Positions 18,256-46,596 of a DNA stretch of 64,000 nucleotides are shown here, piece by piece. Source of the DNA: Streptomyces actinomycinicus (lineage in GTDB: Bacteria; Actinomycetota; Actinomycetes; Streptomycetales; Streptomycetaceae); the NCBI RefSeq assembly GCF_016741775.1, contig NZ_JAERRK010000002.1, forward strand, positions 496,001 to 560,000, given 5' to 3'. Under the pieces are notes generated by a model, which worked only from the letters and a program-made list of their open reading frames with translations, made no database searches and was not told the DNA's origin. The first letter of the stretch is position 1; each line of letters starts with the position of its first letter. Made by a program: the position numbers and the translations under genes.

Positions 18256-19612
18256 CGGACGCCTCCTTTCCATCCGAAGATCCGTCACTGACAGTGTCCG
18301 GTCCACCACTGACAATCAGCTCCCGGTCGCGGCGCGAGCGGCGCCTCGGCACCGCCGGAAGCTCCTGTCCGGGCAGCGGCGGTACGGGGAATCCGCCTGC
18401 CGTCGCGTCGAAGGCCGCCTGCCCGCCGGCGGGCTCCTCGGCCGTCTTCGCCTTCTCGCGGAACATGTCGGCGATGAAGGAGATCAGCAGCAGGGCGAGG
18501 ACGCCGCCGCCGACGTAGAGGGCGATGTCGGCGAAGTCGTAGTTCTCGTTGCGCAGGGCTCGTACGGTCGCGACGAGCATCAGCCAGGTCACGGAGACCG
18601 GGATGAGGACCTTCCAGCCGAGCTTCATCAGCTGGTCGTAGCGGACGCGGGGCAGCGTGCCGCGCAGCCAGATGAAGAAGAACAACAGCAGCTGGACCTT
18701 GATGACGAACCAGAGCAGCGGCCACCAGCCGTGGTTCGCGCCCTCCCAGAAGGTGCTGATCGGCCAGGGGGCGCGCCAGCCGCCGAGGAACAGGGTGGTC
18801 GAGACGGCCGAGACGGTCACCATGTTGACGTACTCGGCGAGCATGAACATCGCGAACTTGATCGACGAGTACTCGGTGTTGAAGCCGCCTACCAGGTCGC
18901 CCTCGGACTCCGGCATGTCGAAGGGGGCGCGGTTCGTCTCGCCGACCATGGTGACGATGTAGATGATGAAGGAGACCGGCAGGAGCAGGATGTACCAGCG
19001 GTCGTGCTGCTGCTCGACGATCGTAGACGTCGACATCGACCCCGAGTACAGGAACACGGAGGCGAACGCGGCGCCCATGGCGATCTCGTACGAGATCATC
19101 TGCGCGCAGGAGCGCAGGCCGCCCAGCAGCGGGTAGGTGGATCCGGAACTCCAGCCCGCCAGGACGATGCCGTAGATGCCGACGGAGGCGACCGCGAGGA
19201 TGTAGAGCATCGCGATCGGCAGGTCGGTCAGCTGCATCGTGGTGCGGTGGCCGAAGATCGAGATCTCGTTGCCGGCCGGGCCGAAGGGGATCACCGCGAT
19301 CGCCATGAACGCGGGGATGGCCGCGACGATCGGCGCGAGGATGTAGACCACCTTGTCCGCGCGCTTGACGACGAGGTCTTCCTTGAGCATGAGCTTCACG
19401 CCGTCGGCGAGCGACTGGAGCATTCCCCAGGGGCCGTGCCGGTTGGGGCCGATGCGCAGCTGCATCCAGGCGACGACCTTGCGCTCCCAGACGATGGAGA
19501 ACAGCACGGTCACCATCAGGAAGGCGAAGCAGAAGACGGCCTTGACGACCACCAGCCACCACGGGTCGCGGCCGAACAGCGAGAGGTCTTCAGCGGCGAG
19601 GTACGTGGTCAT
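18248..19612 (-). CDS. nuoH: NADH-quinone oxidoreductase subunit H
   Basis: The 454-residue, eight-helix membrane subunit forms the quinone chamber with NuoB and NuoD. It has [20 protein letters not shown], the glutamate-rich loop [21 protein letters not shown] and [17 protein letters not shown]. The last about 70 residues are an extra polar tail not needed for the core. It overlaps nuoG at its start (ATGA) and nuoI at its end. Confidence 0.95.
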
Positions 19613-22113
19613 GCCTCCACCTCCTTGGGGGTCTCTTCGGCGAGTGCCGCCGGGCCGATGCGGACGAGGGAGCCGGGCCGTGCCCCGGTGTCGGAGGCGA
19701 CGCCGGTACCGACGGAGTTCAGCGGGAGCCAGACCACCCGGTCGGGCATCTCGGTGATCTGGACGGGGAGTCCGACGGAGCCTGCGGGTCCGGTGACGGC
19801 GAGGATTCCGCCGTCCCGGACGCCCACTTCGGCGGCGGTCGCCGCGGACACGCGCGCGCGTGCGGCGTGCCGGGTGCCGGCGAGCGCTTCGTCGCCCTCC
19901 TGGAGGACGCCCTGGTCGAGCAGCAGCCGGTGCCCGGCGAGCACGGCCTCGCCGGCGGCCGGGCGGGGCAGTACGCCCGCCAACTCCGCGGGTGCGCCGG
20001 CCCGCGGGCCGTCCCAGGGGCCGAGCCGGTCGATCTCCGCGCGCGCGGTGCGCAGATCCGGCAGGCCCAGGTGTACGTCCATGGCGTCGGCGAGCATCTG
20101 CAGCACGCGCGTGTCGGTCGGTGCCAGCCGGCGGGTCATCTGGTCGGGCTTGAGCGCGGCCTCGAAGAAGCGGACGCGTCCTTCCCAGTTGAGGAAGGTG
20201 CCCGCCTTCTCGGCGACCGCGGCGACCGGCAGGACGACGTCGGCGTGCTCGGTGACCTCGCTGGGCCGCAGTTCCAGCGAGACCAGGAAGCCGACGTTCT
20301 CCAGTGCCTCGCGCGCGCGTGCCGGTTCGGGGAGGTCGCCGACCTCCACGCCGGCGACCACGAGTGCCGACAGTTCGCCGTTGCCGGCGGCCTCGACGAT
20401 CTGGTTCGTGTCACGGCCGTAGCGGAGCGGGAGTTCGGCGAGGCCCCAGACGGCGGCGACCTCTTCCCGCGCGCGCGGGTCGGTCGCCGGGCGCCCGCCC
20501 GGCAGCAGCGAGGGCAGCGCGCCCGCCTCGACGGCGCCGCGTTCCCCGGCCCGGCGCGGGATCCACACCAGCGCGGCACCGGTCGAGGTGGCGGCGCGCA
20601 GGGCTGCGGTGAGACCGCCCGGGACGCCGGCCAGCCGCTCGCCGACGACGATGACCGCGCCCTCGGCGCGCAGCGCCTCCGCGGCCCGCGTACCGGGGTC
20701 CTCCAGGCCGACGCCGCTCGCGAGGGCGTCCAGCCACTCCGTCTCGGTGCCCGGCGCGGCCGGCAGCAGGATGCCGCCCGCCTTCTCCAGACCCCGGGTG
20801 GCGTGCGTGGCCAGCGCGAACACCTGCTGCTTGTGCTTGCGCCAGGCCTTGCGCAGCCGCAGGAAGACGCCGGGGGCCTCCTCCTCCGACTCGAAGCCGA
20901 CGAGCAGCACGGCGGGTGCCTTCTCCAGGGAGGTGTACGTGACGCCCGTACCGTCGAGGTCACGTCCGCGGCCGGCCACCTGGGCGGCCAGGAAGTCGGC
21001 CTCCTCGCCGCTGTGCACGCGCGCGCGGAAGTCGATGTCGTTGGTGTCGAGGGCCACGCGCGCGAACTTGCTGTACGCGTAGGCGTCCTCGACGGTGAGC
21101 CGGCCGCCGACCAGGACGCCGGCCCGGGAGCGGGCGGCGGTCAGGCCGCGTGCGGCCGCCTCGAGGGCCTCGGGCCAGGAGGCGGGCTCCAGGACTCCGT
21201 CGGCGTTGCGCACCAGGGGTGTGCCGAGTCGGTCCTTCGTCTGTGCGTACCGGAACGCGAAGCGTCCCTTGTCGCAGATCCACTCCTCGTTGACCTCGGG
21301 GTCCTCGGCGGCGAGCCGCCGCATGACCTTGCCGCGCCGGTGGTCGGTGCGGGTGGCGCAGCCGCCCGAGCAGTGCTCGCACACCGACGGCGAGGAGACG
21401 AGGTCGAAGGGACGGGAGCGGAAGCGGTAGGCGGCCGAGGTGAGGGCGCCGACCGGGCAGATCTGGATGGTGTTACCGGAGAAGTACGACTCGAACGGGT
21501 CGCCCTCCCCGGTGCCGACCTGCTGCAGTGCGCCCCGCTCGAGCAGCTCGATCATCGGGTCGCCCGCGACCTGGTTGGAGAAGCGGGTGCAGCGGGCGCA
21601 CAGGACGCACCGCTCGCGGTCGAGGAGCACCTGGGTGGAGATCGGTACGGGCTTCTCGTAGGTGCGCTTCTTGCCGTCGAAGCGGGACTCGGCGTTGCCG
21701 TGCGACATCGCCTGGTTCTGCAGCGGGCACTCGCCGCCCTTGTCGCAGACCGGGCAGTCCAGCGGGTGGTTGATGAGCAGCAGCTCCATCACGCCGTGCT
21801 GGGCTTTCTCTGCGACGGGCGAGGTGAGCTGGGTCTTGACGACCATGCCGTCCGTGCAGGTGATCGTGCAGGACGCCATCGGCTTGCGCTGGCCCTCGAC
21901 CTCGACGATGCACTGGCGGCAGGCACCGGCCGGGTCCAGGAGGGGATGGTCGCAGAACCGCGGGATCTCGATGCCGAGCTGTTCGGCGGCCCGGATGACC
22001 AGGGTGCCCTTGGGCACGCTGATCTCGATGCCGTCGATCGTCAGCGTGACGAGGTCCTCCGGCGGGACCGCCGCCTGCCCCCCTCCGGTGGGGGCGCTGG
22101 TGGTCACGGTCAT
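19609..22113 (-). CDS. nuoG: NADH-quinone oxidoreductase subunit G
   Basis: The 834-residue subunit starts with a 2Fe-2S ferredoxin domain ([15 protein letters not shown]). The His/Cys N5-type region and [22 protein letters not shown] and the molybdopterin-oxidoreductase-like [4Fe-4S] motif [13 protein letters not shown] follow, then a degenerate molybdopterin fold (about 300-834). It extends the electron wire from NuoF to NuoI. The stretch encoded by 20295-20235 (- strand) is duplicated almost perfectly at 32469-32529. Confidence 0.95.
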
Positions 22114-31617: not shown

Positions 31618-32313
31618 TCAGTCCTCCTTGAAGCCCCGGTGCAGGGCGACCACGCCGCCGGTGAGGTTGCGCCACGCCACCTTGGACCAGCCCGCCTTGC
31701 GCAGCCGTTCCGCGAGGGCCGGCTGGTCGGGCCAGGCACGGATGGACTCGGCGAGGTAGACGTACGCGTCGGGGTTCGAGGACACCGCGCGGGCGACCGG
31801 CGGCAGGGCCCGCATCAGGTACTCGGTGTAGACCGTGCGGAACGGCGTCCAGGTCGGGTGCGAGAACTCGCAGATGACCACGCGCCCGCCGGGCCGGGTC
31901 ACCCGGTACATCTCCCGCAGGGCCGCGTCCGTGTCCTGGACGTTGCGCAGCCCGAAGGAGATCGTCACCGCGTCGAAGGTGTCGTCCTTGAAGGGGAGCT
32001 TCGTCGCGTCGCCGGCGGTGAACGGCAGCCAGGTGTGCTTGCGCTTGCCGACCTGGAGCATCCCGAGCGAGAAGTCGCACGGGACGACGTACGCGCCGCA
32101 CTGCGCGAAGGGCAGCGAGGAGGTGGCGGTGCCGGCGGCGAGGTCCAGGATCTTCTGCGCGGGCCGAGCGTCGACCGCCTTGGCCACCTCCTTGCGCCAG
32201 CGCCGGTCCTGCCCGAGCGACAGCACGTCGTTCGTCAGGTCGTACCGTTCCGCCACGTCGTCGAACATCGAGGCGACTTCGTGCGGCTGCTTGTTCAGGG
32301 AAGCGCGGGTCAC
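31618..32313 (-). CDS. menG: Demethylmenaquinone methyltransferase
   Basis: The 231-residue UbiE/MenG-family enzyme has the opening [26 protein letters not shown] motif [26 protein letters not shown] and the family segment VCEFSHPT-like [11 protein letters not shown]. It adds the final C-methyl group in menaquinone synthesis. GTG at 32313 fits family length; an ATG at 32340 is open. It lies convergent with the PASTA gene and near mqnC/mqnA. Confidence 0.9.
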
Positions 32314-32468
32314 CCGCCCATTCTTGCAGCCCGCTCGCACGGCAGGAGGGTGGGCTTCCCGCGGCCCCTTTCCGGAACTCCCGTGAGCCGCCGGACGCAG
32401 TGGTGAGCCGCCCTCGAAGGCGCGGGCGCGTCCAGCCTGTTGCCTCCCCGGGCGAGCCGCGGAACCCG

Positions 32469-32529
32469 GTCGGCTTCCTGGTCTCGCTGGAACTGCGCCC
32501 CAGCGAGGTCACCGAGCACGCCGACGTCG
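32469..32529 (+). repeat. 61-bp copy of an internal nuoG segment
   Basis: Bases 32469-32529 match the - strand of nuoG at 20295-20235 with a single mismatch by eye. The reading frame is kept, so the two encode the same residues. The match stops abruptly at both ends. Confidence 0.85.
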
Positions 32530-32759
32530 GCGTCACGTTCACGCTCCCGGTGATGCCCTCGGGTCTGGACTCCGAGGGGGTCGCGCTGCTGGAGTCCGCG
32601 AACGAGTACGACGTGCAGGTCTCCACGGTCAACCTGATGACCATGAACCACGGCGAGTCGTACGACGGGGACAACTGCAGTGGGGTCGCCCAGGATGCGG
32701 GGGCGTTCGGGGAGGCCTTCTCGCGGACCGCGGAGACCGCCCACTACCTCCGCCGGTGA
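32469..32759 (+). pseudogene. Mosaic relic: nuoG fragment joined to chitinase-like (GH18) fragment
   Basis: An open frame from about 32400 to a TGA at 32757 has no plausible single-family identity. Residues from 32469 read [20 protein letters not shown], which is NuoG. After 32530 it reads VTFTLPVMPSGLDSEGVALL and VSTVNLMTMNHGESYDGD, which resembles the C-terminal half of secreted GH18 chitinases. The start, signal and catalytic part are absent. It overlaps the end of the opposite-strand gene at 32744. I read it as debris of recombination. Confidence 0.65.
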
Positions 32760-33193
32760 ACCAGCCGCCCGGCGCACACCGTCGCGATGCACGCCCCCGC
32801 CTCGTCGAAGACGGCCAGGTCGGCCCGGCCGGTCTGCACGAGTGCCGGCGTGCGGGCCGTGCTCGGGAACACCACGACGTCGTTGCGCTCGGCGGCGGCC
32901 CTGAGTTCGGGGGTGTCGGCGTACTGCTCCAGGACCGCGACCGCTCCCAGCTTGAGCACGGCGTGCACGCGCTCGCGCGGGCTGGGGGCGTCCGGAAGAG
33001 GCCCGTCGTGGATGCGGGCGGGGCCGAGGGAGCCCGGCCAGGTACGCACCCGCGCCTGCGGGAACCGCTCGCGCAGCTCCTCGTACGTGCCGACCGCGCC
33101 GATCCGGTCCCGGCCGACCACCACGGCACCGTTCGCGATCGGCTCGGCGTCCCAGGTGACGAAGACCCTGTCCGCTGCGTGAATCGTCTCCAC
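32744..33193 (-). CDS. Short amidohydrolase-like (imidazolonepropionase-like) protein next to mqnC
   Basis: The 149-residue protein begins like the N-terminal beta-sandwich of amidohydrolases (ADRVFVTWDAEPIANGAVVVGRDRIGAVGTYEEL) and ends with the matching C-terminal sandwich strands (GRADLAVFDEAGACIATVCAGRLVH). The whole metal-binding TIM barrel, with its HxH and catalytic His/Asp, is missing. The middle (AVLKLGAVAVLEQYADTPEL) is short. The gene follows mqnC by 7 bp on the same strand, so it is probably cotranscribed with a menaquinone gene. Function is unknown; it may be a non-catalytic partner or a shrunken deaminase. Confidence 0.7.
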   Translation of the reverse strand: METIHAADRVFVTWDAEPIANGAVVVGRDRIGAVGTYEELRERFPQARVRTWPGSLGPARIHDGPLPDAPSPRERVHAVLKLGAVAVLEQYADTPELRAAAERNDVVVFPSTARTPALVQTGRADLAVFDEAGACIATVCAGRLVHRRR

Positions 33194-46368: not shown

Positions 46369-46461
46369 CTCAATCCACTCGTCCGATTCCAAAAGGGGTC
46401 ATCGTCCAGTGAAGCACGCCGCACAGGCGATCATGCAGCGGGGTCCGTGCGGCGGGGTAGT

Positions 46462-46596
46462 ACGGCGGGACCCGTTCGGCGGGGAGGCGCGGCGGGACCC
46501 GTTCGGCGGGGAGGCGCGGCAGGACCCGTTCGGCGGGGAGGCGCGGCGGGATCCGTTCCGCGGGGCGGCGCGGCGGGATCCGTTGCTGCGCGGCGG
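46462..46596. repeat. 27-bp tandem repeat, five units
   Basis: Units begin at 46462, 46489, 46516, 46543 and 46570. The consensus is GCGGCGGGACCCG-TTCGGCGGGGAGGC. Units 1-3 are nearly identical, unit 4 has several changes and unit 5 diverges after GTT. The array lies between the stop of the acetyltransferase gene and the DUF4229 gene and is not part of a recognised protein. Confidence 0.9.

Follow-up and report, generated by a model that had tools for sequence, protein, structure and literature searches.

The window analysed here, a stretch of 64,000 nucleotides of the Streptomyces actinomycinicus genome, carries an intact copy of the respiratory-chain gene nuoG and the interval between menG and mqnC, in which a short piece of nuoG lies among the remains of a chitinase locus. 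The features concerned are listed below by position in the window and strand.

20235–20295, minus strand: donor stretch inside intact nuoG (834-aa ORF, 19609–22113), coding for 20 residues and matching 32469–32529
32310–32358, minus strand: what is left of an acyltransferase gene, namely its last ~16 codons and stop codon, which overlap the menG start, from comparison with S. flaveolus
32363–32468, plus strand: putative remnant of the sequence immediately preceding the start codon of the lost chitinase gene (weak, ~67 % identity)
32469–32529, plus strand: nuoG-derived filler of 61 bp, identical to the genome's own nuoG at 60 of 61 positions and sharing its lineage alleles
32532–32673, plus strand: GH18 exochitinase-like relic, codons ~179–226 of a 333-aa relative, with 86–89 % DNA identity to many relatives, the best-matching ones
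32674–32725, plus strand: 3′ scrap of that chitinase gene, set off by an in-frame deletion of 270 bp, from alignment to S. flaveolus
32744–33193, minus strand: intact right-hand neighbour, a 149-aa amidohydrolase-like ORF before mqnC, outside the scar

The order of the remains is thus acyltransferase tail, chitinase upstream part, nuoG piece, chitinase codons ~179–226 and 3′ scrap. The relic of the chitinase locus extends from about 32310 to 32725, beyond the segment of 32469–32759 to which the original prediction, made from the sequence alone, had assigned it. The 149-aa ORF adjoining mqnC (a match to HUTI_composite_bact) was far more variable than its neighbours, aligning at only ~30 % in some relatives.

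The nuoG piece is the reverse complement of the donor stretch, with a single mismatch (a CGG codon that reads CGC, with C for G at its third position). It was the only further match when the whole genome (8.79 Mb, a draft assembly of 106 contigs) was searched for copies of nuoG (E 4.7e-23, 98 % identity), and the two formed the strongest dispersed repeat pair detected by blastn in the window, the only other pair of at least 28 bp being a tandem array. A 27-bp unit is repeated in tandem ~6 times at 46435–46596, in G+C-rich sequence. Both edges of the copy were sharp, identity to the nuoG flanks dropping to background there. The piece keeps the reading frame of nuoG within an open frame, 32400–32759, that becomes GH18-like from 32532 onwards. 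The original prediction had described a one-mismatch, in-frame match to nuoG, too close and too sharply bounded to be due to chance, that was followed at once by a chitinase-like frame, and the genome search, the background identity beyond the edges and the affiliation of the intact gene in relatives (below) bore it out.

The alignment with other Streptomyces at menG–mqnC that had been proposed as a check revealed an intact island in relatives, and deletions together with the nuoG patch in S. actinomycinicus. The interval of S. flaveolus and of eight other Streptomyces encodes an acyltransferase (372 aa, Acyl_transf_3), a polysaccharide deacetylase fused to a family 2 glycosyltransferase (744 aa) and an exochitinase-like GH18 protein of 333 aa, probably secreted, whose gene runs in the direction opposite to these two. 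The closest relatives found were S. flaveolus NRRL B-1589 and S. sp. Ru62. The S. flaveolus chitinase orthologue had no Pfam family at E 1e-3, and matched ‘Exochitinase 1’ (PDB 9buf, E 1.7e-82) and a second chitinase (PDB 2dsk, E 2.5e-25); this homology to solved GH18 structures indicates that the parent of the relic was a GH18 chitinase.

All three island genes were kept in nine of the 20 relatives examined. The chitinase was kept alone in three and with scraps of its neighbours in another three, a scrap of one gene was all that remained in two, and nothing of the island was left in three. About half of these relatives had therefore eroded or lost it, to differing extents, and the island seems to have been lost repeatedly. 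A second deacetylase–glycosyltransferase fusion, with 60 % identity to the missing one, is encoded elsewhere in the S. actinomycinicus genome (C28:75032-77188); it has one in-frame TAG within the match and may itself be broken.

Approximately 4 kb of the island seen in relatives is missing from the window. To the left of the nuoG piece, 32251–32358 had 95 % identity to the menG start and acyltransferase tail of S. flaveolus. The segment that follows, 32363–32468, gave its top match against S. sp. Ru62 at the collinear place, above all of 270 other tiles, and matched S. flaveolus at the same place, where five of the 270 tiles scored equally high. In shuffle tests with several relatives, only Ru62 passed (58 against a shuffle maximum of 57) and S. 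flaveolus failed, for which reason the segment is classed as a weak feature: a possible remnant of the chitinase upstream region, clear by eye against Ru62 and statistically marginal.

To the right of the piece, chitinase homology runs from 32532 to 32673. The retained segment begins 534–540 bp after the chitinase start codon in S. flaveolus and Ru62, so ~545 bp have been replaced by 61 bp. The nuoG piece thus stands where the 5′ end of the chitinase gene is gone relative to relatives, including the signal peptide and the catalytic motif; no DxDxE-type GH18 motif was found in the relic of the window, and the DFDIE of S. flaveolus precedes codon 179 and falls within the deletion. The view that the piece is embedded in a chitinase-like relic holds as regards the relic, but the piece was not inserted into an intact gene and sits at the breakpoint of a deletion. 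The downstream 270-bp in-frame deletion is flanked by imperfect direct repeats of ~12 bp, as 32662–32673 is shared by two alignments to S. flaveolus. It looks like slippage between short repeats, and at least two kinds of event would therefore have shaped the locus. The retained chitinase codons differed from those of S. flaveolus by five, two and 12 changes at codon positions 1, 2 and 3, respectively, a predominance of third positions that points to selection having acted on the gene until late. No function is evident for the relic.

The origin of the copy could be traced through allelic differences. The S. actinomycinicus nuoG differed from that of S. flaveolus at four of the 61 sites, and likewise from that of Ru62 at four. 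At every site where it differed from either, the copy had the allele of its own nuoG, its single private change being the CGC at a codon that is CGG in most of the nuoG sequences compared. As the copy carries alleles particular to the resident gene, it was most likely copied from the local nuoG after the S. flaveolus lineage had diverged. With one change in 61 unconstrained bases, and 15 % of nuoG third positions differing from S. flaveolus, the copy could be of any age between very recent and that divergence. The comparison with relatives supports the proposal of a recent duplication or recombination across ~12 kb as far as a short copy-and-paste event over that distance is concerned, ‘recent’ holding only relative to the S. 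flaveolus split.

No match to the nuoG–chitinase junction was found by exact pattern in 84,980 species genomes, a set that possibly leaves out the genome itself and near-identical records. Among members of the genus, nuoG was matched in 394, but none had a second copy of the junction, and a search recentred on another genome returned the same genomes among the matches listed and added nothing. No filler of at least 26 bp between the menG–mqn interval and the surrounding 12–20 kb was detected in the 20 relatives, and the nuoG filler is therefore special to this genome among those examined.

The 61-bp segment is most probably filler DNA captured during double-strand break repair by end joining. 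The polysaccharide/chitinase island, already dispensable, would have suffered deletions in an ancestor after its separation from the S. flaveolus lineage. One break would have spanned the stretch between a point ~20 bp ahead of the chitinase start codon and codon ~178, and its ends would have been joined around a 61-bp copy of nuoG from ~12 kb away, in inverted orientation. The nuoG piece may have been a free fragment that was ligated in or may have been copied by template switching. Ku/LigD end joining would be the likeliest machinery; two genes for Ku and three for LigD polymerase domains exceeded the cut-off in the genome, one of each lying side by side. As in scars of non-homologous end joining (NHEJ), the insert has an identifiable intragenomic source and lies at a deletion breakpoint in a genome that encodes Ku and LigD. 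It counts against this explanation that no sister genome carrying the junction was found, which leaves the stages immediately preceding and following the event unseen, that the left edge is weakly aligned, and that the 270-bp deletion looks like slippage.

Short matches at the right edge perhaps helped the joining. There, the chitinase genes of relatives, which stand in for the ancestral sequence, matched the nuoG donor in runs of 2–7 bases, the best being GAGCGCGAGGACGTCGCC and GAGCGGCCCGACGTGGAG against GAGCACGCCGACGTCGTC; the median of these matches lay at the 5th percentile of codon-register 18-mers, which hints at microhomology. The left edge sits in weakly aligned sequence, with at most ~2 bp matching. 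Short matches like those at the right edge, a short patch and an intragenomic donor are also what short-patch double illegitimate recombination (SPDIR), reportedly described in Acinetobacter baylyi, would leave: a short nuoG single strand annealing at target microhomologies during replication would have replaced the stretch between them, with neither a double-strand break nor Ku/LigD. The exchange of ~545 bp for 61 bp, in a locus with other deletions, fits break repair better, and an SPDIR-like event is considered unlikely. The scar shares with SPDIR in A. baylyi a short intragenomic patch that replaces other DNA, at microhomologies in SPDIR; here the net deletion is larger, the host is a Streptomyces and microhomology is only suggestive.

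An assembly or sequencing artefact, by which a chimeric join placed the nuoG piece in the chitinase relic, had been offered as the alternative, and both the draft state of the assembly and the absence of the junction from the other species searched would agree with it. The copy, however, has a private mismatch, the sequences on either side of it come from one chitinase locus and are collinear with it, in the correct order, the site lies well inside a 625-kb contig, far from its ends, and a repeat of 61 bp is shorter than the usual read length, all of which makes an artefact very improbable. Less credible still is the idea that the in-frame chimera (ORF 32400–32759, 119 aa), instead of being a relic, is a young gene that is expressed: the nuoG frame, the chitinase frame and the 270-bp deletion do together maintain one open frame, but the product lacks a signal peptide and a GH18 catalytic motif, no ribosome-binding site is evident, the chimera occurs in no relative, and DNA so rich in G+C commonly contains long open frames by chance. 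Since nuoG and the chitinase gene have no extended stretch of homology in common, gene conversion by homologous recombination was discarded.

End-joining capture of local filler thus remains the preferred reading, and the locus is a new example of a kind already known, a natural scar with local filler in a decaying island. Taken alone, the finding amounts to a single scar in an island that is dispensable and dying out. There is only a slim chance that menG–mqnC is a spot of unusually frequent breakage and rejoining with readable local-filler scars across species, or that the chimera is a small expressed gene. The scar nevertheless provides a natural counterpart, timed by relatives, of the fillers made in the laboratory by cutting the Streptomyces chromosome, and a systematic search for such scars could measure the share of end joining in shaping wild genomes.

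Templated insertions, or filler DNA, are said to occur at end joining in plants, where a patch is copied into the break; the copied patch is common to both cases, whereas the plant enzymes are different and eukaryotic. A closer comparison is with Streptomyces ambofaciens, in which the repair of breaks made by I-SceI in the central chromosome left deletions of 191 to 23,591 bp, and half of the NHEJ-type scars contained microhomologies of 1–6 nt (Hoff et al., 2018; PMC5869714). Three clones had insertions, two of which (42 and 83 bp) came from the region close to the break, whilst the third (30 bp) matched a transposase gene of the terminal repeats (PMC5869714). The S. actinomycinicus scar resembles these in having an endogenous insert (30–83 bp in S. 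ambofaciens) at a deletion-bearing and presumably repaired break in the central part of the chromosome, in taking its filler from nearby DNA, as did two of the three inserts there, and in a genome that likewise encodes Ku and LigD proteins. It differs in that the S. ambofaciens break was made by I-SceI and the scar read at once, whereas here the scar is natural and carries one later substitution, the donor is ~12 kb away and the machinery is deduced from the genome.
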